Origin: Chalciporus piperatus
Taxonomy: Eukaryota > Basidiomycota > Agaricomycetes > Boletales > Boletaceae
Length of the DNA: 51,357 nt
Reading direction: 5' to 3'
Assembly (NCBI GenBank): GCA_038093975.1
Contig: JBBPTG010000174.1
Location: forward strand, 1 to 51,357
The notes under the pieces are model-generated. The model was given only the letters and a program-made list of their open reading frames with translations, had not been told where the DNA came from and ran no database searches. The position numbers and the translations under genes are program-made. This document shows positions 9,976 through 48,884 of this stretch, piece after piece (the stretch's first letter is position 1; every line of letters starts with the position of its first letter).

Positions 9976-10159
9976 TGTTGAACGTAGCGTACATTCTTAG
10001 TATAGAAGGTAGTTACCACGCTTGTTCTATATCACATTCGGACTCAGTCGATCTGAGTTCCAATACAACTTGACTTGTAATCACAACGTTCGAAGTTACT
10101 CAACAACCTCACTGCTAGGTAAGCACCAGAAGTAGTTCCTCATCGGAACCCTCTCAACA
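9976..10159 (+). repeat. copia 5' LTR
   Basis: 184 bp, TGTTGAAC...CTCAACA. It differs from the 3' LTR at two positions. Preceded by the target duplication CTTTT. Confidence 0.95.
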
Positions 10160-10173
10160 GGTTATGAGCCCTG
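10160..10173 (+). promoter_or_regulatory. copia primer-binding site matching the initiator tRNA anticodon arm
   Basis: GGTTATGAGCCCTG directly follows the LTR. Its reverse complement CAGGGCTCATAACC is the anticodon stem-loop of eukaryotic initiator tRNA-Met (CAU anticodon), not the tRNA 3' end. This is the half-tRNA priming arrangement known from Drosophila copia. Confidence 0.75.
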
Positions 10174-10448
10174 GGTAGCTCAGCTGTGCGCGAAAGCGCC
10201 GCTGACTACTCTGGTGTTCTTGCCTAACAAGAACGTTTGGTCGCTCTGCGCGGTTTTACCGCCGGGCATCTCTCTGATGCGGTCAGGCTCAGAAGAGACA
10301 TGACCACAATGAGTCAGATCCCATGGGGAAACTATGTCCCCCTAGGATATGGGCTCTGAGCGTTCACGCTGACGCGGTCCCACCCGCTCCCTTTTCTCCT
10401 CTTCGATTAAAGGCAACGCTGACGCCTCATCCCGCTAGATACTCCACT

Positions 10449-13578: not shown

Positions 13579-15251
13579 GCACAGGCGATGCGTTTACACG
13601 CTTGCCTACCCGATTCTTACTGGGAATTCGCTTTAACGCATGCATCCCATGTGTACAATCGTACACCAATGGCTAGGTTGAACTGGAAGACTCCTATGGA
13701 GAAACTTACAGGGGAACAATCCTCCGTCTCCCACCTAAGAGTATATGTGGTGCATACGTGCATCTTCCCGATGAAACAAGGAAAGGGAAACTACAACCAA
13801 AGTCCCAATTGATGGTTTATCTCGGTGTTGCCCCTGGTAGTGAGCGCAACTACATTTTCATGCGCCCCAACAACTCCATGCATACGTCGGCACATGCCAT
13901 CTTTGATGAGCATCTGTTTCCTAGGTGTCCCGGTGCACGCCCTCACAGGCCTGTAAGTCACCCACCCACTGAAGCACATCGACACACCGATGATGAAAAA
14001 GAGTCTTCAGACTCTGACTCCTCTGACGATCAGTCTGATGCGGTTAAACCCGCCCCTGATCCCCAGCCAGCACGCCCGGAAACCCCACCGGCACCTCCAC
14101 CTGCACCTCCAGTCACACCGCCATCTGCTCGTCCACCAGCTGGACCGCCCGACGCTCCACCTCGCCGATCTCAACGTGAACGCCGACCCCCTACTCGTCC
14201 TGGGAACGTCTATGGCGAAGATCGTCATCCTTTACAACAAATTAAGGACATTGAGAAGAGATCTCGCTGGGAAAAGCTTATTGGACACGGCGAACCATCA
14301 CGAGAACCGCAGCGTGAACAACCGATCCCAGGTTCCATGCCCGACTCTAATCCTTCGGAAGACGAGATCGAACGCATAACCAGGGAAGGGGGAGAGGCAT
14401 TGATTAACTATCTTTGCTCTCGTGCTTATATTCCGGATGAAATGAGTAATCCCAACTATCGCGAATGGAAATTCCGTGATATACTCAAACTTCCTGCCGA
14501 GGAACAAAAACTCTGGCGACAAGCCTGCGAAACAGAGCTTCAGATGCTCAAAGATCGCAAGGTTTACGAGATTGTAGATCGACCAGCTGATCGTAAGATC
14601 ATTAAAAATCGCTGGGTATTCGACGTCAAGTCTGACGGTCGTAAACGCGCTCGCCTAGTAGCCAAAGGCTTCTCACAGGTTGAAGGCGTAGACTACGATC
14701 AGATCTTCTCCCCAGTTGTACGATACGAAACGGTGCGGTGCATGCTCGCCCTTTCTACACTAGAGGACTGGTACATCACCGGCCTCGATGTACGATCTGC
14801 CTATCTATACGGCAAACTGGAAGAGGAACTCTACATGGAGTTTCCTGAGGGTTATACGCCACCCGATAAAAAAGGCAAAGTCCTAAGACTACTACGTGCA
14901 ATATACGGCCTCAAACAAGCAGGATTATCCTGGTGGCGCACGTTAGACAAGTCCATGGCTGAACTTGGCTTCACAAGGCTCAAGACTGACGCCGGCCTGT
15001 TCATATACCGCAATGGAAATGATATCGTCATTGCAATTGTTTACGTTGATGACGCCCTCTTCTGTGGACCTAACAAAGCTGTCGTAAACAAGCTAAAGGC
15101 CACATTCATGAAGACATGGGAATGTCGAGACCTCGGGGAACCCAAAGAGTTCCTTGGGATGAATCTTCGTCGAGAAGGCAGAAAGCTGCACATTGATCAG
15201 TGCAAATACCTCGACAAGGTGCTTGAACGCTTCGGCATGACGAATGCTAAA
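13579..15251 (+). pseudogene. copia Pol, middle segment (integrase C-terminus, RT)
   Basis: It continues the integrase after the solo LTR (ACLPDSYWEFALTHASHVYN...). A 2-bp insertion in the TGTGG run at 13747-13750 shifts the frame; the main frame then runs from about 13758. A Pro-rich linker (about 14030-14190) precedes the RT: RLVAKGFSQVEGVDYDQ, LDVRSAYLYGKLEEELYM, AIYGLKQAGLSWW and the YVDD box at about 15043. The frame is interrupted at 15251 by the CATCAG element; the last copia codon before it is AAA at 15249-15251. Confidence 0.92.
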
Positions 15252-15621
15252 CATCAGGAAAAACCTCCCGTGGATAATTCTCTAGAATACTAAGAATTCT
15301 TAAGAAAAAGCAACTATTATCACAATTTGTATGAATTTGTTGGATTTGTTTGAAATCTGGATAATTCTCCGGTCCCCTTTTGTCATTTGGAGTATTTTGT
15401 AGATTTACTTCATAATATATCATAATATATCACTATTACTGTAGTGATTCTGCAGCTATTCACTACTCTTCTTGCAGTTGCACTTCACATAAATCAAGCA
15501 TAGAGACAGATAAATCAAATAGATTGACATATAGCAAGTACATGACATGTCCTAATCTACTACTGACTACAATGATGGGAGGGGTTGGGGCAAACTATGA
15601 ATGCTGGTGTTAGTAAGAAGA

Positions 15622-15654
<33 letters not shown>
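15622..15654. repeat. (GAT)11 microsatellite
   Basis: Eleven perfect GAT repeats inside the CATCAG element. Confidence 0.95.
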
Positions 15655-15655
<1 letters not shown>

Positions 15656-15719
15656 TCACTGAGAGGATGAAGGTGCCATGAGTGAAGGAGGTATGGGTGA
15701 GTGTTGTTCGAGTTGAAGA

Positions 15720-16500
15720 TGGGAGGTGGTGATGGGGTTTGAAACAGCCCGAGCGGCTGTATACGAGGTGAGCGAGTGTGATGGTAGACGCATGAAAACT
15801 AACCTCGTGATGCCGGCGGGGCTATTGAGCCCACGCCGGCCTTGTGTTGTTCGAGTGGGTCTGAGGTGGGAGGTGGTGGTGGGCAGACAGCCCCGAGCGG
15901 CTGCTAACAAGGTGAGTGGATGAGATGGTGGGTGAACTGGCAGTACTCACATCGTGATGCCGGCGGGGGCTGTTGAGCCCACGCCGGCTTTGTTTTTCCA
16001 GTTGAGAGTGGGTGAGGTGAGAGGTGGTGATGGTGGTGAGGCCAACAGCCCGAGCGGCTGCGAACGAGGTGAGCGGATGGTGTGGTGGGTAAGTTTTCAC
16101 TTACATCGTGAGGCCGGCGGGGCTGTTGAGCCCGCGTCGGCCGTGTTTGGGTGTCGAGTTGAAGGTGGGAGGTGGTGGTGGGGCAAACAGCCCGAGCGGC
16201 TGGGTCTGAGGTGAGTAGCTGGGTCCGTTGGTGAAAAATACACGCACCTGATGAAGCCGGCGGGGCTGTTGAGCCCACGCCGGCTGCGTTTTCATGTCAT
16301 GAAGGTGAGGTGGAGATGGTGGGCAAACAGCCCGAGCGGCTGTTTGTCGCGTTTTCGGGTTGTTGTGTGAATGTGATGGTGGGAGGTAGACTCGGATGAA
16401 GGTGGTGGGTGAGTGAAAACTCACCTGTCAAAGCTGGCGGGGCTGTTGAGCCCACGCCGGCTTTGTTTTCGAGTCGAGTGAGGTGGTGTAGGTGGTGAGA
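15720..16500. repeat. GC-rich hairpin array (right copy)
   Basis: Five units about 143-178 bp apart (near 15812, 15959, 16113, 16256, 16434) carry GCCGGCGGGGCTGTTGAGCC followed by CACGCCGGC, the reverse complement of the motif at 9523-9870, alternating with AGCCCGAGCGGCT palindromes. Each can form a stable hairpin or cruciform. The open frames crossing it are repeat artefacts. Confidence 0.8.
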
Positions 16501-16610
16501 ACACAAGTCGAAAGTGCTGACGACGCGGCAAGTTCAACGTAGTCACGTGACTTGCTCGCGCGGATTTTTGACAAGTCCAACGATTAGGGAATGAGGCTAC
16601 ACTTCATTAG

Positions 16611-16980
16611 GCAATTTTTGTACACTTTTTGTACACTTTGCTACACTCAATTATTACACACTTTAAGTACACTTTGTACACTCAATTACTAAACACTTTA
16701 CTACACTTTTAAGTATGCTTTGGTACGCTTTTTTGTACACTTTGGTACACTCAATTATTACACACTTTGGTACACTTTTAAGTACACTTTTACTACGCTT
16801 TTTGTACACTTTTGCTACACTAATCCCTACACCTTTACTACACTTTTGACTACTGTTTTACTACGCTTTTTTGTACACTTTACTACACTAATCAAAACAC
16901 ACTTTCCCACACTTTTGACTACACTTTTAGTACGCTTTTTTGTACACTTTACTATACTCAATCCTAACACACATTTCCAT
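16611..16980. repeat. TGTACACTTT-type minisatellite (right copy)
   Basis: Degenerate units such as TTTTTTGTACACTTTACTACACT, the inverse of the array at 8807-9420. Confidence 0.8.
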
Positions 16981-22386: not shown

Positions 22387-22647
22387 CATCAGCAAGACTG
22401 TAAAAAGTCTGAAATGACTTGACTGGGTGACTAGATGACTGGATGACTGAGACTACTGAGGTTACTGGAGCACTGACTCACTGGACTACTGGATGACTGA
22501 GACTATTGGATGACTGGAACACTTGGTTACTGGATGACTGAGACTACTGGATGCCTGGGGCACTTGGCTACTGGCTCACTTGTCTGACTGGCTCCAGTCA
22601 GACAAGTAAGCTCCAGTCATTTCAGACTTTTTACAGTCTTGCTGATG
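22387..22647. mobile_element. 261-bp CATCAG MITE inside gypsy-2 gag
   Basis: Inverted ends start CATCAGCAAGACTGTAAAAA (about 33 bp perfect). The 2-bp AA duplication (22385-22386, 22648-22649) restores the gag frame when removed. The right-hand ~230 bp is nearly identical to the right end of the 4.17-kb element (48475-48704), so this is an internal-deletion derivative of that family. It holds no coding sequence. Because the host gypsy-2 has identical LTRs, this family moved very recently. Confidence 0.92.
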
Positions 22648-22675
22648 AAGCCTGAGTGCCGATGATCAACGCCGG

Positions 22676-25600
22676 ATGGCTAAGCGTAGCCAGGCCGAGG
22701 CATCCGCTCGCGACGCAAACAGCGAAAGTACGTCGGTGTCTGACGACGAGGTCGTCGACAAAGGCAAAGGAGCGGACCCTCGAAATTGGGGTCAGCTCAA
22801 CGTCGATCAAGAAGAAATAGACCTTGATTGTCAACGTGCCGAGCTGAATCATTGGGCACGACAAGGAGAGGCGGGGCCCTCTTTATCCGTACCGATCGAT
22901 GAGCACCCTGAATCGTCGGATGAGGACGAAGGATCGTTCGTCGCCACTGAACCTCAAGAAAAACACCGCTCGAAGCGAGACAAACGCCGTGAATCGCGAT
23001 ATCGGCGTAGAAAGGAGGATGGGCCCTCGGCTCGAGGACGACAACCGCTCGAGGCCAGCACCCCTAATCCTATTAAAAAGTTGATCAGTACTGCGATCAG
23101 CATGAAAGGAAGGAAGCCCAGGACGTCTACCGTCCGGGTAATTGAGCCCTCGCAGCAGATCGCACCTGATAGTTACCTAGGTCGAGCGCTTGGTCGAATC
23201 CAGCCTACTAAACCGAACCGGAGCTGTTCAAGCCGAAAGGCGAAGCAACGAGACGATCCTTCTGATTCGTCAGATTCGAGCGATGAGAGTAGCGATTCAG
23301 ATGGGTCCGCTTCATCGTCGAATGACGATCAGTCCTCGTCGTCGAGCTCGTCTACTATCTCGTCAGGTGACAACCGGCGACGTCGAGGACATCGATCCCA
23401 TAAGCGTCGTAAGCACAATGGAACCGGTCATAGGAAAGCCCCCCGGCAAAGGTCGAGGGGGTCGGGCTACGGGAGACTGAAACCTATCCCACCCAACAAA
23501 TATAACGGAGCTCCGGACTCGAGAGCATTCCATCGATTCGTGACGGAAGGGACCGCCTACGTTCAGACTGGACAAGTGCGGCGACGGGATCAAGTCTTCG
23601 TACTGTCTCATTCGTTGACTGAGAAAGCACATGAATTCTATATTCAAGAAGTAGCCGGAAACCCGCATGCTTGGCGTCTAGGGGATTTCTTCCTCGAGAT
23701 GTTCAATCACTGCTTCCCCATTGACTTTCGCACTAAACAACGAGAAAAGTTGAAACGCACATTCCAGAACGAGCGATCGGTTCGAGAATACATTTCCAAT
23801 CTGACCGAACTTTGGAATCTAATTGGTGATGTTAGCGAACGAGACCAAGTGATGAAGCTATGGTTCGGGTTTGCTACTTACATTCAGAGCGAATTGTGGA
23901 AGGACCGACTCAACCCAGAGAAATCTTCCCTTCGGGAAGTCATCGCGGCGGCGGAAGTGATTGAGATTGCTCACTCGGTCACCGCTGGACGGTCAGAGCA
24001 CCGCGACAAACGCCGAAACCGCCATGGCGGTGACACAGCGATTCCTGAAGTCGCGGTTAGCCAGGTGAAGGAAAATAGTCACCATGATCGCCGGACTAAC
24101 CCTAAGACGAGGGGACAACGCCCAACTCGAGGAGGATTCAGAGGACGTCGGAATGAGGGTCGACCTCACACTACCCACAACCCGCGTGGAGCGAGGCCTG
24201 GGACTCGGGTCAGTGATCAATTCCCTTTGAGTAAAGAGGAACACGACCGGCGAGTCGCTGAGCGTCTATGCTTCAAATGTGGGGAACCTGGGCATGTCTC
24301 GAATGCTTGTCCTAAGGGAAGGACAGTCGCCGGGGGATCTTCTGCTAGGCCCCCAGGAGTGCCTTCTTACAGTATGTCCGTAGGGGATAGCATCGGGGCC
24401 CTGGAGGCGATGGTTGCAGCAACCGAGTCGATGGATACCTTGACTCTTAACTCGGTCCGAGTGGAGGAAGACACGGGGAGACCTGACTACATCTCAGAAC
24501 CAGGAGTAATGGGAGAACCACTAGGCTTACGAGCTTGCGAAGTATTGTGGAAAAGCGCCCCATTTCCGGGTGACGATACCTCCAACCTCAACGTATACGC
24601 GCGCGATCGCTTCGTGGTGTCGCGATGTTCACCTATTCACCACGTAGTGAGCGATCACGCGAGGGGGAGAGATCAAGAATGGGCTACTGAAATCGAAACC
24701 AGGTTGCTGCTGAATCGGGATTTCCGAGTGGGAGATTGGTACGCCAAGCAGATGGTTCTGAAGGGATATGGTACTGAGGCTCAACGACGAGTCCGGCAGC
24801 GAGGATATCCTATGGCTGCGCCAGTGGCCCAACGAGTGGAGCGAATCTTGCGAGAGACCTATGATCCTGAATGGTCATATCGTAGTGATCGAGAATCTCG
24901 GTATGACTGTTCTACTATCGAAACTAGGAATGATTATTGGTTCCAAATCGAGGATAATCAGACTCACTTGACATTGGAGTTGCCCCTTCAATTGGCGCTG
25001 AGACCGCGCTTGAACGTCGCGGAATGGTATCGCGTTACCATCGAAAGACGGGACCGCGCGCTGCACCAAATCCTTTGGGAACTACACTCGGAGAGAGAGG
25101 TTCCCGAATGGTTCTACCAGCAGACTCAGGAACGACAAAGAGATCACAATCAAGTCGACCACGTACTATTGAGTGTGGCACAGATTCCGAGGAATACATA
25201 CCCAGCGCTGGAACGCAACTCGTCCGCGACGAAAGATTTCAAACGACTTATTCCTAAGCCAGTCGTGGTAATGGTTCGGGTCAATGACCGCCCCGCCCGA
25301 GCGTTACTAGATACTGGTTCACTAGCTGACTTTATGTCGTCAACCTTGGCGGAGCAGATCAAAGTAAAGCGAATGGAGTTAGCGAAACCGCTTACAGTCC
25401 AACTAGCCGTTCAAGGGTCGAAGTCGAAAGTGAACTTCGGGACGAAGGCTCGTCTGGAGTACCAAGGCATCAATTGTGAACGATACTTTGATATTATCAA
25501 CTTACAAAGTTATGACCTGATCCTGGGGACACCGTTCTTGTTTCAACACCAAGTAAGCGTCGGATTCAATGAATCGAGCGTGATCGTCGGTAGTTCAGCT

Positions 25601-28600
25601 CCCTTGCCCCTGAAAGGACCGCAAATTCAGGTGCTTGAATCGAGGGCAGCTGACTTACTGGATGACCGGATCGAGGAGGCTCGTCGACAACTGCATCAGG
25701 TTGCCCAGCCACTGTGCGCGAAAGCTAGTCAGACCGGGTTGCCTCCCCTACGAGCCATGAATCATACCATACCACTAATCGACGAAAGTCGCATCTACCC
25801 TTGGAGGCCCTGTCGTTGTCCAGAGGCGTTGAGACCCCAGTGGGTAGAAAAGAGGAACGCTTACCTAGCGTCTGGCCGCTGGAAAGTAACCAGTATAGGC
25901 AATACGGTGCCCATGTTGTTGATCAAGAAACCAGGGACAGATAAGCTGAGAACGGTAGTTGACCTTCGCGAACGCAATAAGAATACTCGCAAGCTGTCCG
26001 CCCCCTTGCCGGACATTGACGGAATCTTGAGGCGGGCATGCACTGGGAAATACCGATCGATCATCGACGGACAGGATGCATACGAACAGATTCGTATCAT
26101 TCCTGAGCATGTTGAGCGATCCGCAGTAACTACCCCTGACGGAAATCTGATTAGCACGGTTATCCAAATCGGGGATTGCAACGCGCCATCGACTTACCAA
26201 GCCTTGATGAATCACCTGTTCGGGGAGTATATTGGGCGTTGGATGGACGTATACCTGGACGATATCATCGTATACTCGAAGACCCTGGACGAACATGTTC
26301 AACACGTTAAGATCGTCCTTGAAATCCTGAAACGGGAAAGACTTTACCTGAGTGAAAATAAACTTCAGTTTCTTTGCAAGGAACTGAAAGTGCTGGGACG
26401 GATCATCGACGATTCCGGCATCAGGATGGACCCTGCAAAAGTGGATCGCGTTCTGAACTGGAAAGTACCTACTAACCGCGACTTGCTTCGCGGATTCATC
26501 GGGAGTGCAGGATACCTGGCTGACGACATTTATCGAGTGCGAGTTCCACTCGGAGTCCTGTCAGCGGTAACGGGAGATGCTACCCCGTTTCGCTGGACCG
26601 ACACCGAACTGAGAGCGTTTGAAGAAGTTAAACAATACGTTCAGAACTGTGCCACTCACAGTCGGGTCCCTATCAACTACGGAAAGGAGGCTTCTCCCAT
26701 TTGGCTGATGACTGACGCTTGCTACAATGGCATTGCGGCGGTCGTTGCGCAAGGGGCAGATTGGAAAACAGCTAAGATTGCTGCATTTTTCAGCGCCAAA
26801 TTGAATACTACTCAACAGAATTACCCAGTTCACGAGCAAGAGATGCTCGCCGGGGTAGAGGGGATGCTGCGCCATCGAGATATCTTGCAGGGGGCAAGAT
26901 TTACTTGGCTAACAGACCATAAAGGACTGATCCACCTGTATAACCAGAAGAACCTGTCAGGACGACAGGCGAGGTGGATAGAAAAAATCGGAGAATTTGA
27001 CTTCGAGATTCAGTACTTACCTGGCGTGGAGAATATCCTGCCTGATGCTCTATCGCGCCTGTACTCGAACGATGCGAGAGGGACAGTGCGCTCTTCGTCA
27101 GAATATGTACATCTCGCCGAGGAGGGCATGAACGTACGCCTGGCGGGCTTGATGACCATGCCTGTACTCGTGGGAGACGAGGCGAAGGGAATTGGTCTTC
27201 GTCGTAGCACGCGAGTAGCCAGTAAAGAGCGGAGAGCTCTGGGCGACGTTGACACTAGTAGGGCGGGGACGAGCAGGACGACTGCGAAACCACCCGTGAA
27301 GGCGGCAGCGAAAGCACCTGCGCTGCCTGGGGGTCAGAGCATTGCAGGAGGCTCGAAGCCAACGACTACTATTCGCGGCTCTAGGCCGTCGCGGAGCGAA
27401 AAATTGGCTGGCTCGAAGCCAGAGGGGGAGTCACGAAAGGCGCCAGTGGCGCCAGCCGAGACGGGAAGGCCAGAGACGAGCGCCGAGTTCGCTCGTCGGG
27501 TGCGAAACAGGTTCGTTCTTCGGGGACCACGAGAACGACCGGAGGGGGGAATGTCGGGAAAGGAGACAGAGAACCCTTCTACTCGGACTACTCAGCTGAA
27601 TGAATATGCAGCAGATGGAACGGAGCCTGACTTACCTCTGATGTTTCTCGATCATGATAACGTTCTGGGGAAGATTAAGGGCCGTTATAGCGAGGACTCC
27701 TTCTTTCGCATAATCGTTGAGGATCCCACTCAATTCCGTAACTTCGAAGAACGAGATGGATATTTCCGACTTAGGACGGGAGGGCGCGTGGTCATATGCG
27801 TCCCGGACGTCAGCATCGAAGGACGAAAGGCTAGGGAGTTAATTATCTCCCAGGCACATTCATTATTGGCTCACCTCGGAACTGCGCGGACACTGGCATA
27901 CCTCCGAGATTCCGTTTGGTGGAAAGATATGGTGAAGGATGTGCAGCGCTATTGCGAAACTTGCCAGACATGCAAGAGGAGTAAACCTTCGAATCAGAAG
28001 CCGTATGGCTTGCTAAACCCCTTGGCGGTGCCTACACGACCATGGGAATCCATTGGTATTGACTTCGTGGGACCGTTACCTCTATCAAAGAACAGGGACG
28101 GCGAGTTCGATTCAATCACCGTCGTTATCGACCTGTTGACCGGAATGGTTCACTTGGTGCCAAGCCGAGTAAATTACTCCGCGCGAGACGTGGCCGAGCT
28201 GATCTTCGCGGAGGTATACAAGCACCATGGGTTACCTAAGAACATAGTTAGTGATCGAGATGTGCTGTTTACCAGCGCGTTTTGGACTCACCTATGCTCG
28301 CTAGTTGGGACTTCTCCTAGAATGTCGAGCGCATATCACCCCCAGTCGGACGGATCCACCGAGCGGGCTAATCGGACTGTCGGGCAAATGCTCCGAGCAT
28401 GCATATCACCTAATCAGAAAGATTGGGTTAGCCGAATACCAGCGATCGAGTTCGCCATCAATATTGCCAGGTCTGAATCCACAGGATATTCCCCGTTCTT
28501 CCTGAACACTGGGAGACAGCCTCGCACGTTCGTCTGGAACGATGCCTCTACGACCGAGTATCCCAGTGTGCGAGCTTTCGCGCAACGCATGAAACAAGCG

Positions 28601-30415
28601 ATCATGGCCGCGCACGATGCTATTCTCGAAGCGAGGGTGAAACAGACTAGACAAGCTAATAAACGTCGTCAAATTAGTCCCTTCAGATCGGGAGATCTTG
28701 CTTACGTATCAACAAAGAATATGTCGTTACCGAAGGGACACGCTCGGAAGCTGATCCCGAAATACATTGGTCCCTACAAAATTATTGAGGACTTTAGAAA
28801 CAATTCGTATAAGCTAGACTTACCGGCTCGATTAAAGCAGCGGGGGATTCACCCCGTTTTCCACTCGTCCGTGTTGAGGATCCACGAGCCCAATGACGAT
28901 CGATTGTTCCCGGGACGCCTTGAAGACCAAGTCGCGGATTTCGGAGAGCTTGGGCCTGAGTGGACTATTGACCGTATATTGAGACACGAAGGGACAGGTG
29001 TAGACGCCTTGTTCCAGGTGAAGTGGACCTCCGGCGATGAGACATGGCTGCCGCTGTACCAGATAGACCACCTAGATTGTTTATCCGAATATTTGCAGCT
29101 CATGGGAGTGAGACAGATCGAGGACCTTCCTCGCGGCGCGGGCCGCCCGCCCGCAGACGACCCTCAGGTATATAATGCCGGATGCCATATCCATTGCCAA
29201 CCCCACCGAGTCACATCGTGCCCACAATCTCCTGTCATGCCACGTCACTTCTCGTCTCGTCGTATCAACACTCACCAGTCTTCCCCTCATGCGAAGCATG
29301 TATTGAGAGGGTTTACCGCCGTTGGAGACGATTTCATCGTGGACGACGACATCGCCGGCGCGAAGCGCTACATCACCAAGGATCAGTTGCTCAAATGCAT
29401 CCAGCACAGCGCTGCGATCCGCAACCGCAACCCGGCCGATCCCTTTCCTGTCGAGCCGCTAGGCTACCTCAATATTTCCCATGCCTTCAACGCTGAGGGT
29501 CACCCCGCGTATCGATTCTCTACGATCGACGCAGACGGTCATCGTCACTTCCGCGGAAAAGGAGAGCCTCACCCTTCTGCGTTCTGGGACCAGGTTCCCG
29601 AAGCAAGCGCTGACACTAGCGAGCGTCGTACTCTCGACGCCCTAGGACGGCACTTCGTTAATCAGCAGTTAAAATGGGATCGCCAGCGCGAACAGCGCGA
29701 CGCTGAGAAGGCTAAGCAGCGCGCCAGGAAGGCGATGGGATGGGAAGCTGGGGAAGGAGGACGTTCGAAGAAGACTAATGGGAGTCAGCAGAGGAGAGGA
29801 AGAGGAGGCCGAAACAGGAAGGAACTTACGGCCGATGAACAGGAGGGCAGCTCCAGCGGGCAACGCATCGACGTCGTCGATTGGAACATGGAGGTGGACG
29901 ACTACCACATCGCCGAGCTCTTCGCTGAGCCTAAGTCGTCGACCACGCCCTGTCGTGCAGGCGGAGCGACTCAGCAAGCGGCCTCGAGGACCCAGGACTT
30001 CATTAAGGGCAACCAGCCAGGTAGCGCTAACCGGTCGGCTAATTACACTGCCACCGGGACTATCGCCGCGTTGCCTGATCTCGACCCATCGCCTACTTCT
30101 CCTGTCCACAGCGTCTCTGCAGCACATGTCGACATCGTCGACTTTGGCGACCTCGCTCAATACCTTAGCGATGCTCCTCCCATCACTCTTCCGTCTACGC
30201 CTGTCCCCGTGACCCCTACCACGATCAACACTACTACCACTACCCATGTCCGTCCTTCGGACGACGAGGTATTCGGGGACGCCGTCTTAGTCAATCATGG
30301 ACCAGATGGCATTGAAACAGCTGAAGAAGAATCCTTCGACCTAGTCGACTTCGGGACGGAGGGTCTCGGAGAGAGCGAAGGGTCGGGTGACGTCGAAGAC
30401 GTCGGAACCAACTAA
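22676..30415 (+). CDS. gypsy-2 Gag-Pol polyprotein with long C-terminal extension
   Basis: 2579 aa from ATG 22676; the frame is open back to the MITE edge at 22649. Gag core about residues 260-430; CCHC zinc knuckle CFKCGEPGHVSNAC near 531; protease LLDTGS near 877; RT with IDGQDAYEQIRI and YLDD near 1191; RNase H (WLMTDACYNGIAAVVAQG) about 1345-1460; integrase HHCC about 1726-1765, D about 1794 (GIDFVG), D about 1858 (VSDRD), E about 1895 (DGSTERANR); chromodomain-like segment about 2092-2140 (LFQVKWTSGDETWLPLYQI). Residues about 2145-2579 extend past the usual end with a folded-looking part, a basic coiled-coil-like KAKQRARK region and an acidic Ser/Thr tail; function unknown. Enzyme motifs are complete. 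Confidence 0.95.
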   Translation: MAKRSQAEASARDANSESTSVSDDEVVDKGKGADPRNWGQLNVDQEEIDLDCQRAELNHWARQGEAGPSLSVPIDEHPESSDEDEGSFVATEPQEKHRSKRDKRRESRYRRRKEDGPSARGRQPLEASTPNPIKKLISTAISMKGRKPRTSTVRVIEPSQQIAPDSYLGRALGRIQPTKPNRSCSSRKAKQRDDPSDSSDSSDESSDSDGSASSSNDDQSSSSSSSTISSGDNRRRRGHRSHKRRKHNGTGHRKAPRQRSRGSGYGRLKPIPPNKYNGAPDSRAFHRFVTEGTAYVQTGQVRRRDQVFVLSHSLTEKAHEFYIQEVAGNPHAWRLGDFFLEMFNHCFPIDFRTKQREKLKRTFQNERSVREYISNLTELWNLIGDVSERDQVMKLWFGFATYIQSELWKDRLNPEKSSLREVIAAAEVIEIAHSVTAGRSEHRDKRRNRHGGDTAIPEVAVSQVKENSHHDRRTNPKTRGQRPTRGGFRGRRNEGRPHTTHNPRGARPGTRVSDQFPLSKEEHDRRVAERLCFKCGEPGHVSNACPKGRTVAGGSSARPPGVPSYSMSVGDSIGALEAMVAATESMDTLTLNSVRVEEDTGRPDYISEPGVMGEPLGLRACEVLWKSAPFPGDDTSNLNVYARDRFVVSRCSPIHHVVSDHARGRDQEWATEIETRLLLNRDFRVGDWYAKQMVLKGYGTEAQRRVRQRGYPMAAPVAQRVERILRETYDPEWSYRSDRESRYDCSTIETRNDYWFQIEDNQTHLTLELPLQLALRPRLNVAEWYRVTIERRDRALHQILWELHSEREVPEWFYQQTQERQRDHNQVDHVLLSVAQIPRNTYPALERNSSATKDFKRLIPKPVVVMVRVNDRPARALLDTGSLADFMSSTLAEQIKVKRMELAKPLTVQLAVQGSKSKVNFGTKARLEYQGINCERYFDIINLQSYDLILGTPFLFQHQVSVGFNESSVIVGSSAPLPLKGPQIQVLESRAADLLDDRIEEARRQLHQVAQPLCAKASQTGLPPLRAMNHTIPLIDESRIYPWRPCRCPEALRPQWVEKRNAYLASGRWKVTSIGNTVPMLLIKKPGTDKLRTVVDLRERNKNTRKLSAPLPDIDGILRRACTGKYRSIIDGQDAYEQIRIIPEHVERSAVTTPDGNLISTVIQIGDCNAPSTYQALMNHLFGEYIGRWMDVYLDDIIVYSKTLDEHVQHVKIVLEILKRERLYLSENKLQFLCKELKVLGRIIDDSGIRMDPAKVDRVLNWKVPTNRDLLRGFIGSAGYLADDIYRVRVPLGVLSAVTGDATPFRWTDTELRAFEEVKQYVQNCATHSRVPINYGKEASPIWLMTDACYNGIAAVVAQGADWKTAKIAAFFSAKLNTTQQNYPVHEQEMLAGVEGMLRHRDILQGARFTWLTDHKGLIHLYNQKNLSGRQARWIEKIGEFDFEIQYLPGVENILPDALSRLYSNDARGTVRSSSEYVHLAEEGMNVRLAGLMTMPVLVGDEAKGIGLRRSTRVASKERRALGDVDTSRAGTSRTTAKPPVKAAAKAPALPGGQSIAGGSKPTTTIRGSRPSRSEKLAGSKPEGESRKAPVAPAETGRPETSAEFARRVRNRFVLRGPRERPEGGMSGKETENPSTRTTQLNEYAADGTEPDLPLMFLDHDNVLGKIKGRYSEDSFFRIIVEDPTQFRNFEERDGYFRLRTGGRVVICVPDVSIEGRKARELIISQAHSLLAHLGTARTLAYLRDSVWWKDMVKDVQRYCETCQTCKRSKPSNQKPYGLLNPLAVPTRPWESIGIDFVGPLPLSKNRDGEFDSITVVIDLLTGMVHLVPSRVNYSARDVAELIFAEVYKHHGLPKNIVSDRDVLFTSAFWTHLCSLVGTSPRMSSAYHPQSDGSTERANRTVGQMLRACISPNQKDWVSRIPAIEFAINIARSESTGYSPFFLNTGRQPRTFVWNDASTTEYPSVRAFAQRMKQAIMAAHDAILEARVKQTRQANKRRQISPFRSGDLAYVSTKNMSLPKGHARKLIPKYIGPYKIIEDFRNNSYKLDLPARLKQRGIHPVFHSSVLRIHEPNDDRLFPGRLEDQVADFGELGPEWTIDRILRHEGTGVDALFQVKWTSGDETWLPLYQIDHLDCLSEYLQLMGVRQIEDLPRGAGRPPADDPQVYNAGCHIHCQPHRVTSCPQSPVMPRHFSSRRINTHQSSPHAKHVLRGFTAVGDDFIVDDDIAGAKRYITKDQLLKCIQHSAAIRNRNPADPFPVEPLGYLNISHAFNAEGHPAYRFSTIDADGHRHFRGKGEPHPSAFWDQVPEASADTSERRTLDALGRHFVNQQLKWDRQREQRDAEKAKQRARKAMGWEAGEGGRSKKTNGSQQRRGRGGRNRKELTADEQEGSSSGQRIDVVDWNMEVDDYHIAELFAEPKSSTTPCRAGGATQQAASRTQDFIKGNQPGSANRSANYTATGTIAALPDLDPSPTSPVHSVSAAHVDIVDFGDLAQYLSDAPPITLPSTPVPVTPTTINTTTTTHVRPSDDEVFGDAVLVNHGPDGIETAEEESFDLVDFGTEGLGESEGSGDVEDVGTN

Positions 30416-41352: not shown

Positions 41353-44300
41353 CTAAATGCAATTGTGTCGTCCCAACTTGATTAAACTGAACATGTGTGT
41401 GTCTATGTAAGGATTGACGAAAAAGCGGTCGCATGCCATTGCTACATTAACTGTTGACCAGCCTGGGTCCTTCTCGTGTCCAAAATCTGGTATTAGATGG
41501 CAACTCCGTACAATGTTCTCGACAGGAATCACCTCTCCGTGTCGTTGGTGCATCCGTGACGACCGCGAAACCATGTACATCCCGCTATGTGGGTCCTTGG
41601 CCCTGAATGGCGTGAACCATTCGATGTATGCTAATGGCTGCTTGATGGTTGATTGGGCCGCAGCAGGATAATAATCGGGAATGGCGAAGATGGCGCAAAT
41701 TTGTGCAATGCGAAGTCCTGAAGAGAGCATCGTTATCACACAAATACCGCCAGCGAGCGGTTAGGTCCACTTACCTTCGAGTGCTGTGCCCTCCGTGGCA
41801 CGATTAGCTTCTGGTGAACGAACAAGGGCAAAGTCCAGGTGAGCAGGCTCTGCAGCACATCGCAAACGAGCTGGACGTGGGGGTGATGCTCGTACAACAT
41901 TCATCAATTTGCTAGCTTGTGTCACTCCCGGGATTGCTGGGAGTTTGAAGACCAGCCGCGCGAAAAGGTTGAAGGTATCAAATGGCCGTGGAGTGAATGG
42001 GAGATGATGGGCTGCGAGGTAAGCTTGCAATGAGGAAAGGAACCGGGTGGCATGTTGGTCAGCAATTATTTTGCTTGCCGTAATATTACGAAGGTGAGGA
42101 GGATGGTGGCTCGGAACCTCCGATAACGTGATGCCTCGTGCTGCTGTGTTAGTCGCCCTTTGTGCGGCTACGGTCCCAACCACGACTGTCGTGTTGTCCA
42201 CCTCGCTGCTCTCCCCAACTTCCTCCATCAACTCATCCGCTATCTCCTCACCCTCACGACCGTCTGCTCCACCAGCCGCCGCTTCCAACCCGCTCCTTGT
42301 TTTTTGTCGACACCAATCCAGAAACAAAGCATAACGGTCCACCGCCTCTTGGCGACGCAACCAAACGGTCATTTGAATGATGAAGTCCTTCTTGTTAGTT
42401 GCGCGGTAGGCCTCTTTCGCATAATCGATATGCAAGCGTTCGGGAGATTCTGTGTTGAAACCGTCCGCTGACCCGAAACGTTTGATTAGGTCGACGTAGT
42501 GTTGCATGGCATGAATCTTCGGAATATTGAAATGCGTCGACTGCCGCCCCCCAAGCTCGATGAAGATGTCTTTGGACTCGTGAAAGGTATTCAGGGATGC
42601 TTGGAGAGCTGAAAGGGTCTCAGTGGTATGGCACTGCAGGCTGGAGTAGTAGACGAAGTCGACGACCGCGCGTGCGGCTTTCGTGAGACGTGCATCCTGG
42701 CCACTCGCCACTAACCCAACGAATACTTTCTGCATCTCCTTATGCTCCTTGCCTGTCCACTGCGATACTGACGAGATTCCGTTTTTGAAGTGTCGAAGGC
42801 CTGGATGCGACGTCATCGCTTTGAACCGTGCATCCACCTCCTTCTCCCCAATAATGGTCGTGCACCATTTAACGAGGTGATCCTTGAATACACCCTTATG
42901 CAACTGATGAAGTAGGTCCGGTGTAAATGCCGTGAAGATGTCGCAATATGGCATAAACATCCAAAACGGAGGGTAGATGGCTCGCAAACCGAGTGTCTTG
43001 AACACTTCCTTCGTCGTCGGGGTGGATGCGGAATCTTCCACGTGGTGTTGGAGTAGGCGTATTGTTGCTGTTTGATCGCGTTTAGGTGCTGGCACATTAT
43101 CCCCTCGAGCTGTAGGGCTGACCTCGCAGAGTGGACATCGGTTCTCCATACAACATGCGACGAGGCACTGCTCTGGGTAATCGGCCACATACGCGGCAAG
43201 GATTGGCCAGACATGTCTCACGACGGCATCAGCGCACGTCATGGTCAACCCCTGTTCTCCTGCCGTGGCAAGTGAGGTAAGCATCGTCTTCATGCAATAA
43301 TGAAACAGTCGATATTTGATTACCGACTTTGCCTTGTCTGAGAAGCCGTCAAGATGCGCGATCGGGAGATATCCCAAGAGGACGGTCGCATGTGCTGATG
43401 CGCCCCGCCGGACGTCCTTCGCAATGTTCCCTATGGTTAGGTAAACAGGCCAAGCAGCTTTGTCGCCTCGAAACTGAGAGAGCTGCGTTTTGTCAGATGA
43501 CAGTATCACAGGAACCACAGTAGCATTGTCTGGGAGGCGAGACTATAACCTTGCATCAGGCCTTTCAAACTATGTGATGGCAACGAGAACGAGGCATACC
43601 TGCATCTCCCACCACCAATCGGCAGTCCATGTTTCATCAACCACTCTACTCGTCCTGTCTGGACCAGTGTAAAGACGCTCGGGTGCGTACTTCATTGAGT
43701 CACGAAACATTGGGTTACCGAGGAGTTCGCGGATAGTTTCTACAGGGTCGCGATACCAGAGTTCCACGTCCTCGAGTTGGGGCATTCCTTCTTCGTCCAT
43801 AAGGTCCCCCGTAAGTGTAATGCTTTCGCATTGCCAAGGTACACCGGGGGGGAGCTGATCCACGGCCCGCAGAAATTCAGTCTTGTTGCGGAACGATGGC
43901 TGCACCTTGCCTTGAATCTTGGCGAACAATGTCTTAGAGCGGTGCGCCATCAATGGGGTGGATGTTTTACTCACTGCATTCAGCTTTAGAAACTGTTCAG
44001 TCTGATTCTGACCAACATTTTTAATCAACCACTTCGCAAGTTGCCATTCGTTATCATCCGCAAATGGGCCCAACAACCCTCCCGTGGTATGGAGTAGGTG
44101 GTCACGTATATTTTCGAACGAAGTTGTGGCCTGACCTATGCCTGCACCAGCACCACGGCTCGCCGCAAAGGCCTCGCGGTAAACCTCACCATTCCACCTC
44201 TCTGTCTCGACATCATCAATGTCCTCCCCTCGTGCTTGATGATCTGTGCCACTGTCAGTGGCAGCAAGGGGATCGGGAGCATAGTCATCTATGTCTTCAT

Positions 44301-44520
44301 TGTATACGAACTCAGGCGAGTGTGCCCGTTCGCTGCGATCATCTAGCTGGGCGGCGGGAGAGTCGGACACTGATGGCAGTCCGGCCAAAGGATTATTCTG
44401 AAAGTAATCTCGGCCTTTACGACAGGCTGGGGATTGTCCTTGGTGGTGTCGTACGGCAGTATGGTTGGCATATATGGCACCACAATATTGGCACTGGAAC
44501 GAAGATCGACTTGGAGTCAT
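41353..44520 (-). CDS. Plavaka-type DNA transposase, intact
   Basis: Minus-strand exons 44520-43600, 43542-41775 and 41717-41353; two 57-bp introns (GTATGC..TATAG and GTAAGT..TTCAG) with agreeing phases; 1017 aa. N-terminal C2H2-like finger CQYCGAIYANHTAVRHH..SPAC (residues 10-33). The core carries family signatures VILSSDKTQLSQFRGDKAAW (D324), TPDLLHQLHKGVFKDHLVKW (about 520) and NTESPERLHIDYAKEAYRAT (about 660), which I take as the probable D-D-E centre; the C-terminus has YIEWFTPF and LIPDFG motifs. Known from Agaricomycete Plavaka elements, distantly related to CACTA/KDZ transposases. A 4.17-kb CATCAG element sits 14 bp before the ATG. Terminal repeats belonging to this gene were not identified. 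Confidence 0.87.
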
Positions 44521-44534
44521 AGTGGCACGAACTA

Positions 44535-45481
44535 CATCAGCAAGACTGTAAAAAGTCTGAAATGACTGGAGCTTACTTGTCTGACTGGAGCCAGTCAGAC
44601 AAGTGAGCCAGTAGCCAAGTGCCCCAGGCATCCAGTAGTCTCAGTCATCCAGTAACCAAGTGTTCCAGTCATCCAATAGTCTCAGTCATCCAATAGTCCA
44701 GTGAGTCAGTGCTCCAGTAACCTCAGTAGTCTCAGTCATCCAGTCATCCAGACACCAAGTCATTTCAGTAGTCCCAGTCATCCAGTCATCCAGTCACCAA
44801 GTCATTTCAGTAGTCCCAGTGGCCCAGTGGCCAAGTGCTCCAATCATCCAGTCATCTCAGTCACCCAGTGGTCTAGTTGTCCAGTCACCCAGTCAATTCA
44901 GTGTGGCAGTGCTCCAGTCATCCAGTCACCCAGTCAATTCAGTGTGGCAGTGCTCCAGTCATCCAGCCATCCAGTAATATCAGTAGCCCAGTAGCCCAGT
45001 TATCCAGTTATCCAGTAGCCTAGTAGTCCAATTGACAAGTGATTCCAGTAGTCCAGTAGCCCAGTTATTCAGTAATCCAGTAGCCTAGTAGCCCAATTGA
45101 CAAGTGATTCCAGTAATCCAGTAATCCAGTAATCCAGTCACTCAGTGGTCCAGTAGTTCAGTTGGCAAGTGAATTCAGTGCTCCAGTAACTCAGTAATCC
45201 AGTAATCTAATAATCCAGTTATCTAGTAGCCCAGTTGACAAGTGATTCCAGTAGCCTAGTTATTCAGTATGACAGTCAGCCAGTCATCCAGTATACCGTT
45301 GGGCTCAGAAACCTAGTTACTCAGGAATCCAGAAACTCGAGTGTTCAAGAAGCCAATTATCTCAGAAGCCAAGTAATTCCAATCCTCGAGAAATCCCAAA
45401 GTCCTGGGAGGCCAATCCAGAATTCAATGTGCTAGTTTCAGACAAATATATATTTGTGTATCTAATACAATTATTTACAGG
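44535..45481. repeat. Left long terminal inverted repeat, CCAGT minisatellite
   Basis: About 947 bp of short units such as CCAGTCATCCAGTAACC, ending TACAATTATTTACAGG. The first ~280 bp match the inverse of the right end almost perfectly, then the two arms diverge by unit gains and losses. At 44575-44604 there is a 14-bp-arm palindrome (ACTTGTCTGACTGG AG and its inverse). Frames through it (44701-44994) are repeat artefacts. Confidence 0.88.
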
Positions 45482-45799
45482 TGGTTACATGGCAAGACTC
45501 GGAGGCACTGAGTTTAGCAAAGGCGTAATCTATGAGCACGAATGGTCAATTGCACGGACATGCAAGACAATGATTGAATACTTACCAATGACAGGAACCA
45601 CGGATACCAAGATGATATCAGCGGTGCCACTGGTCGTCGTCATCCAACTCCTCTTAAGCAACATAAGTGCACGAAGAGTGCGCATAGCACGATCCTCGAC
45701 ATCAGCCTGTGCTCAATCTCCTCAGTCTTAGTATCATCATCAAGCCCAATACACACAACAACATAGCCTTCGAGACATACTTGAGTTTGCTATAGTGGG

Positions 45800-45868
45800 G
45801 CAACAGTCAGCAGGTACGATATCACCAATCTTGAAGATCATCAGGATCAAGGTCCGCGGATTCGATCA
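45800..45868 (-). pseudogene. Plasma-membrane H+-ATPase fragment (actuator region)
   Basis: On the minus strand IESADLDPDD and, one frame over, FKIGDIVPADC match the conserved IESADLVPGD..FKIGDVVPAD region of fungal P-type proton pumps. Frameshifted and very short. Confidence 0.6.
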
Positions 45869-46069
45869 TAGAAGCAGGCGACATTGTGCTTACGTTCGTT
45901 TACCGGCATTGAGCACTTCATACAATACAAGGTGTCGATTTGTCGCGCGTGAGCGAAGCGCTAAAAGAAGAAAATGAGAGGAGGCATTTTTTGGCGAATG
46001 ACGCGCTTACACTGGATCGGGCGACACCACGTCGGCAATGGAGGAGGAGTGATGAAATGTTGGCGACGT

Positions 46070-46411
46070 GGTTAGCCACCGAGAGGAGCAGCGATCCTCG
46101 TCTCGTCAGCGAGAGTGATCCTGTTGTTGAAGAAGGGCAATGGCCGAGTCGAAGATGGCAGGGCACTCACCGGCGTGAACGTGGAGCTCGTGGGTGTCAA
46201 CGAGGTCGGTTTTTATTCCGGAAATGTAGGATGAGGAAAGCTCTCCAAGTGAAGGAAGTGACCGAGCTGGAATGATTCAGACTGTTGGGGAGTGCTGAGT
46301 TTTACTTACCGTGCCGAGGAGTGCTCTGGTGAAGGCGGGCTCATAGTTGACAGGATCCAGGAAGAAGTGGTACCGGTCACCGCGGCGGGCGAGAACGACG
46401 ACACCGAGAAC
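46070..46411 (-). pseudogene. Histidine acid phosphatase fragment
   Basis: Minus-strand pieces VLGVVVLARRGDRYHFFLDP, YISGIKTDLVDTHELHVHAG, IFDSAIALLQ and NRITLADETRIAAPLGG match, in order, the N-terminal region of fungal histidine acid phosphatases; the catalytic RHG is changed to RRG. Several frameshifts and a stop separate the pieces. It is captured host sequence without function. Confidence 0.65.
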
Positions 46412-46454
46412 GTCAGTCGTGGTGGTTAGTGAGAGGTGTCACATACTTCGAGGA

Positions 46455-46640
46455 GTGGCTGGAAGTGAAGTGCGGCTACTGTCGGAGAAACCGATGGTGG
46501 AGTCGGCGAAGAAGGACGATACCGAGCAATCCTGCGAGTCTGGGTTGGTGGCGTTCTTCCTGCTCGAGCTTCAAGTTGGGACCGAACAACCCCGGCGACG
46601 AGAGCTGACGACGAGCAACGTTGTTGAGCGAGGAGCGAGG
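46455..46640 (-). pseudogene. Plasma-membrane H+-ATPase fragment (N-terminal region), minus strand
   Basis: Minus-strand LFGPNLKLEQEERHQP, then LLGIVLL and, in another frame, DSTIGFSDS correspond to the LFGPNKLEQEE ... GIVLLLFINSTIGFYEE block of fungal proton pumps. The same block occurs on the plus strand at about 47120-47310, so the element holds two inverted, diverged copies. Confidence 0.6.
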
Positions 46641-46734
46641 AGTTTTGCGCATGAAGATTATGTAAGCTCTTGGTAAGCTCACCGCACGTCAAACACGTCT
46701 AACTACGACTTTACTACAACCCAACCAAAACTCC

Positions 46735-46996
46735 AACGCTCGTGGTCACCACATCGAATAACTCTCTGAGGTCGCCCTTGTCCTCCCCGCTTCCAGAGAG
46801 TCCCTCAACTTGAAGACCAAGGAAGCCGTCGCCCTCCTCAAGAGTCTTAACGCCCACGCAGACGTTGTCAGGTTTCCAACTCTCGCAAGGTGCGCAACTG
46901 CAGTTACCGCCAATGCCGTGGTCCGCTCATCGTTTACAACGAGGGCAGTGCAAATATAATCAACCCCGACGTCACCCGCTTCATCAACAGTACAGA
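46735..46996 (+). pseudogene. 60S ribosomal protein L4 fragment
   Basis: RGHHIE, then LKTKEAVALLKSLNAHADVV, then (after a 1-nt deletion) SNSRKVRNCSYRQCRGPLIV followed by YNE, and finally NPDVTRFINSTE after a deletion of about 80 residues, matching the order in fungal uL4. Cys replaces two conserved Arg in the R-rich stretch. It abuts the H+-ATPase fragment directly. Confidence 0.75.
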
Positions 46997-47017
46997 AACA
47001 TTCACGCGTACAAAAGG

Positions 47018-47750
47018 TAAGGCCGGAGACTTGTACGATAAGGAGAAGGTTGACCTAAAGACGATCATGATAGCTGCTCCAGTGCGACGAGAACGGTTTG
47101 TCGCCAGAGGAGGCACAGCGCCACATCGAGTTGGTCGGCCCCAACAGGCTCAAGCAGGCAGAACAAAATATGTTCCCCAAGTGAGTCTTGTTGCCATCGT
47201 CTTGTCAAACGGCGACCGCTAACCCCCAGACTGACAGGATTTGTCAGAATCGTACTCCTGCTCTTCATCGACTCAACCATCAGTTTCTACGAAGATCGTA
47301 ATGCCGGTCACACGCTCAAGGCTCTCATGGTCCGTGAGTCATGGACTTTCCTGCTCCCAAGGCCAAGGTCATGCGCAGCGCGTGTGCATTGTTGAAGGTG
47401 CCACCGGCGCTGCCCGTGCCAGTGGTGCCACTGACATCGTCTTGACTGAGCCTGGTCGCTCCACTATCGTTCACGCTACCCGCGGTTCCCGTATCATTTT
47501 CTAACGTACGTGCAACTACTCCATCTACGCCTGCGCTGAGACCATCTGTATCGTCGTCTGCTCCGCTATCTTGGCCTTTGCGTTCCGCTTCGACTTCCCT
47601 CCCTTCATGGTTCTGATCCTCGCCCTCTTGAACAATGGTATCATCATGACGCTCTATGTTGACTGTGTGTGAGCGCCCGTCTATTGCTCTCATGGTCGTG
47701 TTCTGTATTGCTCAGCTGATCTCGTCGATCATTGCCGCCTATGGTAACTG
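47018..47750 (+). pseudogene. Plasma-membrane H+-ATPase (PMA1-type) fragments, plus strand
   Basis: In order: AGDLYDKEKVDLKTI, DENGLSPEEAQRHIELVGPN, LVAIVLSNG, FVRIVLLLFIDSTISFYEDR followed by NAGHTLKALM, APKAKVMRS; then a jump of several hundred residues to VEGATGAARASGATDIVLTE, GSRIIF, NYSIYACAETICIVVCSAIL, FDFPPFMVLILALLNNGIIM and AQLISSIIAAYGN. These are the N-terminal and the hinge-to-membrane parts of fungal plasma-membrane proton pumps. The phosphorylation domain (DKTGT) is deleted, and frameshifts and stops occur. Confidence 0.88.
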
Positions 47751-47831
47751 TAGTACCAGTCGTGCGCTGCTTCGATCCATGAGTCCATGTATTCTAACTG
47801 TGTTTCCTTCATTCGTTGTACATTAGAACTA

Positions 47832-48704
47832 CCCTGTAAATAATTGTACTAGATAAACAAATATATAATTGTCCGAAAACTAGCCTGTTGTATTACTGAA
47901 TATTGGCCTGATGGATGATTGATTTCGGGATTTTCTAAGCACTGGAGTCACTTGGCTTCTGGGATAATTGACTTCTCAAGTACTGGAGTTGCTGGATTAC
48001 TGGCTGGCTGACATACTGAGTAACTAGGCTACTGGACTACTGGGCTACTAGATGACTGGATTATTAGATTACTGGATTACTGAGTTACTGGAGCACTGAA
48101 TTCACTTGCCAACTGAACTACTGGACCACTGAGTAACTGGATTACTGGATTACTGGAATCACTTGTCAATTGGGCTACTAGGCTACTGGATTACTGAATA
48201 ACTGGGCTACTGGACTACTGGAATCACTTGTCAATTGGACTACTAGGCTACTGGATAACTGGATAACTGGGCTACTGGGCTACTGATATTACTGGATGGC
48301 TGGATGACTGGAGCACTGCCACACTGAATTGACTGGGTGACTGGATGACTGAAGCACTGCCACACTGAATTGACTGGGTGACTGGATGACTGGAGCACTG
48401 CCACACTGAATTGACTGGATGACTGGACAAGAAATGACTTGGTGACTGGATGACTGGATGACTGGGACTACTGAAATGACTTGGTGTCTGGATGACTGGA
48501 TGACTGAGACTACTGAGGTTACTGGAGCACTGACTCACTGGACTATTGGATGACTGAGACTATTGGATGACTGGAACACTTGGTTACTGGATGACTGAGA
48601 CTACTGGATGCCTGGGGCACTTGGCTACTGGCTCACTTGTCTGACTGGCTCCAGTCAGACAAGTAAGCTCCAGTCATTTCAGACTTTTTACAGTCTTGCT
48701 GATG
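47832..48704. repeat. Right long terminal inverted repeat, CCAGT/ACTGG minisatellite
   Basis: About 873 bp, the inverse of 44535-45481. The outermost part is nearly identical to the left arm and to the MITE at 22387-22647. Confidence 0.88.
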
Positions 48705-48884
48705 CTACCAGGCAGTAAGATGTGTTGTAGTAAGTCAAGGTAACGTTCAAACAAGTTTCTTCATTCACCATGCTGACCAAGATTTGTCAGGTTATCCAAG
48801 TGAAAATTTCCTGGCACCTCTGACCAGCCTCACGCTGCCAGATCATCGAAAACTCCTTCCTTCGTTTGGCGCTGGAGTTTGGGG

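Follow-up and report, generated by a model that had tools for sequence, protein, structure and literature searches.

The 51,357-bp stretch of Chalciporus piperatus DNA considered here (the window; contig JBBPTG010000174.1, positions 1 to 51,357) carries a transposon whose interior is a patchwork of pieces from three host genes: the plasma-membrane H+-ATPase, ribosomal protein L4, and a histidine acid phosphatase. Capture of these pieces by a terminal-inverted-repeat transposon had been proposed in an original prediction, and is confirmed by three lines of evidence: an empty insertion site, matches with genes of the genome itself, and the existence of many sister elements. The element was, however, not itself the capturer, as that prediction had worded it: the cargo is old and common to a family. 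To judge from its sequence, the element is very probably a non-autonomous PlavakaB-type transposon of the CACTA/EnSpm-related clade, Pack-TYPE-like and with foldback arms. The same degree of confidence covers the explanation as a whole, in which such elements are mobilised in trans, capture genes by template switching, and are amplified. Searches covered the element's own genome (35.5 Mb, 484 contigs, fungal as judged from gene content), with contigs denoted by C and a number. The focal element lies on C174, which is shown complete.

The element is delimited by short identical tips and by long inverted arms, with the following features.

44535–48704, no strand: the focal element, non-autonomous and PlavakaB-like, 4,170 bp, with CATCAG and CTGATG at its ends.
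44535–44561, plus strand: left tip, CATCAGCAAGACTGTAAAAAGTCTGAA, 27 bp, matched exactly at 58 places in the genome, its own copy counted.
48678–48704, minus strand: right tip, the identical 27 bp inverted, located by the tip search.
44535–45480, plus strand: left arm, a perfect inverted repeat for 274 bp and then a minisatellite based on the 8-bp unit CCAGTCAT, with divergence growing inward.
47834–48704, minus strand: right arm, the inverted counterpart of the left arm.
44571–44608, repeated at 48631–48668: a 38-bp palindrome seen in self-matches, starting 36 bp inside each tip.

Inverted repeats of about 0.9 kb around a unique centre had been predicted, and self-alignment of 44535–45480 and 47834–48704 bears them out. 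Positions 44535–44808 and 48431–48704 are 100% complementary across 274 bp, and inner blocks (for example, 44839–45154 and 48112–48427, at 93%) carry the arms to about 45480 and about 47834. No transposase was found in the focal element, where the longest wholly internal frame has 152 amino acids and PF00690 was the sole Pfam match among eight inner frames.

Insertion of the element as a unit is shown by an empty target on C367 (locus L064), where the two flanks align to one unbroken stretch and overlap by 3 bp, CTA. The left flank matches there over 296 of 300 bp at 97%, and the right flank over 300 bp at 99%. C367 also holds the highest-scoring relative of the Plavaka gene that adjoins the focal element.

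44532–44534, plus strand: left copy of the target-site duplication CTA, from the overlap of the flanks at the C367 empty site.
48705–48707, plus strand: right copy of CTA, from the same comparison.
41761–44520, minus strand: the target's Plavaka transposase gene (PF18759), with its first ATG at 44518–44520, outside the inserted element.

Read from the sequence, the insertion lies 14 bp ahead of the first ATG of the Plavaka frame, that is, in the 5′ end of the gene. The element had been described as standing next to a Plavaka transposase; the adjacency is upheld by the profile match, but the gene is part of the target and not of the inserted element. A second empty site concerns the smallest paired member of the family, a 90-bp copy on C254 (L080, C254:192–401, positions 61–150) that comprises only two tips back to back. 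It splits a copia-like gene, the unsplit version of which is present in the window at 13837–13954 (92%), and it has a 2-bp duplication, TG. Transposition with 2–3-bp duplication is shown for both the focal element and the C254 copy, and the latter places a bound on the minimal mobile unit. The window also contains, at 22387–22647, a 261-bp relative that has the family's tips and an AA/AA duplication. Its end is 1 bp away from the stop-to-stop frame of a Ty3-type polyprotein (22649–30415) that follows; like the focal element, it lies at the 5′ end of a transposon gene.

Matches to three own-genome genes account for 1,783 of the 4,170 bp of the element. The sources, which have long open exons and are located elsewhere in the genome, are the H+-ATPase gene on C32, the L4 gene on C67, and the acid phosphatase gene on C85. 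The predicted abrupt joining of pieces on both strands is evident from 13 mapped pieces of 29–401 bp, those to the left being on the minus strand and those to the right on the plus strand.

45632–45729, 45762–45790, and 45794–45891, minus strand: three H+-ATPase (PMA1) pieces, 72–86% identical to the C32 gene.
46073–46473, minus strand: histidine acid phosphatase piece, 74% identical to the C85 gene (L005 positions 1964–1501).
46482–46551 and 46553–46590, minus strand: two H+-ATPase pieces, from comparison with the gene.
46737–46950 and 46946–46998, plus strand: L4 pieces, separated in the gene by about 245 bp that the element lacks.
46997–47168 and 47187–47378, plus strand: H+-ATPase N-terminal pieces, with PF00690 at 47074–47181.
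47391–47668, 47671–47750, and 47753–47819, plus strand: H+-ATPase C-terminal pieces, 87–88% identical.

The naming of the H+-ATPase and L4 pieces stands, with 47391–47668 matching the C32 gene at 87% and 46737–46950 matching the PF00573 (L4) gene on C67 at 81%. Two outcomes had been named as telling against the prediction, namely failure of the protein matches in profile searches, and fragments lying in long syntenic host DNA of related strains where the repeats are absent; neither was encountered. PF00690 is matched in the element at 5.6e-6, although the phosphatase is less secure despite its 74% match. When spliced by hand, the C85 gene matches PF00328 at 8e-5 with 22.6 bits, just under the cut-off of 23.6, and it matches chains of prostatic acid phosphatase at 4e-6, so that its name, as read from sequence, is weaker than the others. 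No sign of a function was found for the focal cargo in its sequence.

The original prediction had also suggested looking for introns in the cargo, and intron remains were found in sister elements for all three genes. Base-by-base comparison of the phosphatase piece on C18 identified 5′ untranslated sequence as well as an intron in shortened form. The H+-ATPase piece on C84 retains intron sequence, with a donor that now reads ATAAGT, and the L4 piece on C2 retains part of an intron. In the focal element, the range of the C85 gene that is matched spans the 5′ untranslated part and an intron, and a reading of the alignment suggests that an H+-ATPase splice donor survives beside a deletion. Because family members retain intron sequence, the captured material is taken to be genomic DNA. 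The cargo might instead have entered as reverse-transcribed mRNA, and there is a fungal precedent in a histone H3 transcript captured in a hAT element, the copies of which were termed retrocopies (PMC6710886; this and the other papers cited are drawn on in excerpt). Such an origin is very improbable here and was rejected, given the introns retained for all three genes and the 5′ untranslated sequence in the phosphatase piece. The same introns set the element apart from H3-type transduplication of an intron-free transcript copy.

The tips of the element recur across a family of sister copies. Its first 88 bp have 40 full-length matches in the genome at 99–100%, its own two ends included (40 scored of 61 candidates), and the 27-bp tip has 318 matches with up to 3 mismatches, against 0 for a reversed control pattern. 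A one-base variant, with C at position 15 (C-type, as opposed to T-type), is found exactly at 54 places. The 58 exact tips resolve into 17 same-contig facing pairs spanning 90 bp to 14.5 kb, with 24 tips unpaired at exact stringency. All 17 pairs, which were selected by that tip, have CATCAG..CTGATG at both ends, and 10 have a 2- or 3-bp duplication (9 of 2 bp, 1 of 3 bp). When right flanks were shuffled, a mean of 2.3 pairs had a duplication, and 0 of 50,000 shuffles reached 10. No duplication of 5 bp or more common to any two of the 58 tips was credited, a single 6-bp match (C36b/C479) being taken as chance. C18 carries the same element as the focal one at another site, with different flanks (89.6% by BLAST).

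PlavakaB families are characterised by 5′-CATCA..TGATG-3′ termini and duplications of 2 or 3 bp, while fungal EnSpm termini are 5′-CAC..GTG-3′ (Kojima 2025, PMC12730594). The CATCAG..CTGATG ends described here have the PlavakaB form, and the focal CTA and the duplications of 10 of the 17 pairs have the PlavakaB length. The focal element also has the attributes of Pack-TYPE elements, namely terminal inverted repeats, no transposase found, captured coding sequence inside, and a genomic DNA source. Its long arms of short tandem repeats are of the kind seen in Foldback elements (FB/Galileo). These elements have duplications of 7–9 bp, and were rejected on duplication length, which is 2–3 bp here. 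Other candidates were rejected as well: CACTA (En/Spm) proper, which has CACTA/CACTG termini, because the ends are CATCAG; Helitrons, which are rolling-circle elements without inverted repeats or duplication, because both are present; and hAT, on ends and duplication length.

Pieces of the same three genes are spread over 36 loci, the focal one included. Six of these hold all three genes, six hold H+-ATPase and L4, six hold L4 and phosphatase, and 14, 2, and 2 hold one gene, so that 18 loci have two or three of the genes. Loci were grouped by hand from searches with the three source genes, counts are lower bounds, and the source genes and a decayed H+-ATPase copy on C372 are excluded; the two phosphatase-only loci (C149, C52) may be paralogues. 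An exact tip faces the pieces within 6 kb at 18 of 26 H+-ATPase, 15 of 20 L4, and 10 of 14 phosphatase loci, counted in an earlier grouping of 35 loci in which the C44 and C55 pieces were wrongly merged. At most 1.9% of the genome lies within 6 kb of, and facing, an exact tip.

Other CATCAG-ended elements with different cargo, which the original prediction had proposed to seek, do occur. The C226 member holds a protein-mannosyltransferase piece (PF02366, 1.5e-29). The C170 member (14.5 kb; L062+L085, read over C170:16519–25200) holds a RAX2-like gene (PF12768) over at least 2.2 kb, which is about 91% identical to a gene on C12. It also holds an Adaptin_N piece (PF01602, barely above cut-off), which reads as coatomer beta. 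Two further members have open frames that appear chimeric by translation: one of 370 amino acids on C44 (L063:1510–2619) reads as L4/H+-ATPase/L4, and one of 218 amino acids on C2 (L060:3113–3766) reads as an L4–H+-ATPase fusion.

Piece content varies between elements, which bears on how often capture took place. There is an even chance that one ancestral element took large parts of all three genes once, and that only deletion, inversion, and recombination between copies followed. The alternative within the PlavakaB-type explanation is repeated fresh capture from the same genes. The focal, C18, and C226 elements have the same overall order and share two H+-ATPase junctions (2415–2417|2737–2741 and 2820|3069), and these three and C44 share a layout with minus-strand pieces on the left and plus-strand pieces on the right. 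Common differences from the source gene exceed chance in 63 of 63 pairs, some barely, and changes on the source branch add to the excess. These features favour a single capture. On the other side, C84 and C44 hold gene segments absent from the focal element and C226, with different junctions, and the RAX2-like, mannosyltransferase, and adaptin/coatomer-like genes were each found in single members.

Of 70 pairs of neighbouring pieces in seven elements, 32 abut to within −15 to +5 bp; focal and C18 are copies and hence not independent in this count. In C2, a stretch of 143–157 bp with one L4/H+-ATPase junction is present twice, inverted (82%), suggesting arm-to-arm copying. Bases that match the centre's own reverse complement amount to 1,033 of 1,555 in C348, 1,256 of 1,740 in C338, 1,220 of 1,721 in C259, 984 of 2,091 in C207, 466 of 3,709 in C84, and 321 of 1,934 in C2. 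These counts come from nine centres with arm lengths set by hand, and part of them may be arm tails.

The cargo is diverged from its sources. Between the focal and C18 elements there are 234 substitutions over 4,142 aligned bases, and the focal H+-ATPase pieces are about 13% different from the C32 gene. Compared with the three source genes, the focal cargo has an excess of C-to-T/G-to-A changes at CpG (50 of 313, versus 37 of 646 at other C/G). Today's H+-ATPase copy on C372 was rejected as the source, since the pieces in the focal, C18, C226, and C84 elements are at about the same distance from C32 as from C372, and those in C44, C2, C207, C316, and C483 are nearer C32. The C372 copy (C372:6440–8990, L087) is 92% identical and lacks part of the last large exon, and looks like a decayed paralogue.

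A mechanism can be proposed for how such elements arise and spread. We infer that a Plavaka transposase is the autonomous partner, which would recognise the tips in trans. Little beyond the tips would be needed, as a paired copy can be as small as 90 bp. Pieces might be gained when repair of a break or a stalled fork in an element makes short switches of template to other genes. Capture by template switching is suggested by the short pieces on both strands, by the 32 of 70 abutting neighbours, and by models of animal Pack-TIRs (PMC8277862). Through the long inverted arms, repair could place a copy of a new piece on the other side, which would yield inverted duplicates, and different copies could recombine, which would scramble cargo and leave mismatched flanks. 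Ancestral elements would have put the patchwork together on one or a few occasions, and transposition would later have multiplied it.

A bolder and decidedly improbable idea is that foldback Plavaka elements are self-renewing gene samplers, in which the arms fold, captured pieces are copied across to the opposite arm's side, and partly palindromic pieces of essential genes are kept as protection. H+-ATPase and L4 are essential, and homology silencing of the element through small RNA or methylation would, on this idea, also strike the host's own essential genes. Such a hostage arrangement, if true, would account for the repeated presence of two or all of these three genes together, seen at 18 loci.

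Several observations weigh against the PlavakaB-type explanation as a whole. There is no duplication in 7 of the 17 pairs. For 6 of these (C18, C348, C259, C207, C84, C2), a fetched locus had a flank relative reaching the tip, and in all 6 the relative of one flank continues into sequence missing from the other flank; C348 shows a further difference in the two bases that immediately precede the tip. Elements that join unrelated flanks are what chimeric contigs would produce. Nevertheless, the chance that the element is an assembly artefact, or ordinary host DNA between chance repeats, is negligible in view of the two clean empty sites, the same full element at C18, and the absence of N from the 20 genome stretches examined. 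On C152, two tips 33 kb apart (L074, L075; C152:19586–19677 and 52751–52842) are the two sides of one target in opposite orientation, with a TA overlap in comparison with L064, an arrangement as would be left by inversion between arms.

The second difficulty concerns the transposase. Across the genome, Plavaka genes show no enrichment between the tips: among 90 Plavaka loci, collapsed by hand from 135 matches, 2 lie between T-type tips and 2 between C-type tips, where about 1.3 are expected each. One of the two T-type cases is the focal element's own target gene, and only C170 lies between a pair. That 14.5-kb pair has the same tips, a TA duplication, and Plavaka domain matches at 24266–25435, but its Plavaka could be a nested insertion. 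The second long element, of 10 kb (C226:11965–21974), holds a different, unclassified transposase-like gene, and the main rival for the partner is that this spliced DDE-like gene, rather than Plavaka, moved the family. C226 has exact tips, an AT duplication, and a long intron-bearing gene that reads with D..D..CxxH..E-like spacing. Relatives of the gene occur on C183, C110, C95, C297, and C52, and C95 also has H+-ATPase pieces about 2.6 kb off. The gene, however, matches nothing in Pfam and nothing useful in the PDB, and the contigs of its five relatives have 0 exact T-type or C-type tips. In addition, the family's tips and duplication lengths fit PlavakaB, and motifs of the Plavaka clade are C(2)C and H(3–4)H (PMC12730594), whereas the C226 gene reads CxxH. 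This rival is unlikely. The C226 gene (L061+L042) perhaps represents an unclassified DDE-type family.

Two properties of the cargo also fit imperfectly with Plavaka-type capture followed by decay. Inverted cargo is scarce in some members (131 of 2,370 bp in the focal element, 0 of 2,425 in C18, and 71 of 8,730 in C226). The ratio of non-synonymous to synonymous substitution (dN/dS) between H+-ATPase pieces and C32 is 0.14–0.47 in nine elements, which indicates that part of the divergence arose under coding constraint, as is unexpected for plain decay of today's gene. Since pure decay should give higher values, the source may be a copy that was older or has been lost, or coding may have persisted for a time in part of the cargo.

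Likenesses to the focal element can be found in several described systems. PlavakaB is alike in termini and duplications, and PlavakaB-lineage families bear a captured TET/JBP gene, one of those captured in several transposon groups including Plavaka (PMC12730594). In contrast, no transposase was found in the focal element, which has minisatellite foldback arms and decayed pieces of several housekeeping genes; neither such arms nor such pieces are reported in the excerpted part of that paper. Plant Pack-CACTA/Pack-TYPE elements (PMC8903248) are likewise non-autonomous, belong to a CACTA-related clade, and hold gene fragments between inverted repeats. The differences here are a fungal genome, CATCA rather than CACTA ends, recurrence of the same three genes, and some inverted duplication of cargo. 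In the hAT histone H3 transduplication of Dothideomycetes (PMC6710886), a housekeeping gene was also multiplied by a fungal DNA transposon, but that case involves one gene and a transcript, whereas the present one involves genomic DNA, several genes, a patchwork, and Plavaka-type ends. Animal Pack-TIRs, such as the foldback element Ssk-FB4, combine terminal inverted repeats with a captured gene, with capture via gap filling or template switching (PMC8277862); they differ in superfamily and duplication length. Lastly, Helitrons of Pleurotus (PMC4289320) are also basidiomycete mobile elements with captured genes.

The novelty suggested by the original prediction is consequently narrower than proposed. 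Fungal gene capture as such is already known from hAT elements and Helitrons, in the excerpts cited (PMC6710886, PMC4289320), and CATCAG ends fit PlavakaB rather than a new type (PMC12730594). The part that appears new is the patchwork of several host genes in a Plavaka-type element, for which no counterpart appeared among the papers listed in searches of open-licence literature. It indicates that the Plavaka lineage, noted in PMC12730594 for bearing one epigenetic gene, can pick up genomic fragments of several housekeeping genes and increase their number, in the way that plant Pack elements do. Owing to the junction present as an inverted duplicate and to the mismatched flanks, both arm-to-arm copying and rearrangement through the arms are open to direct tests. 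In genome annotation, automated pipelines may mistake cargo of this kind for additional H+-ATPase or L4 genes.

A second inverted-armed structure is present in the window at 8860–16965. It has other minisatellite arms (GTGTACAAAAAAGCGTACT) and inner inverted repeats, and is split by a copia-like element. One of its arms has a 98% copy on C17. Short inner stretches of the structure (37–76 bp, 79–92%) turn up again within the centres of C348, C338, and C259 and at two single-ended loci, and modules thus seem to be common to families with different ends.

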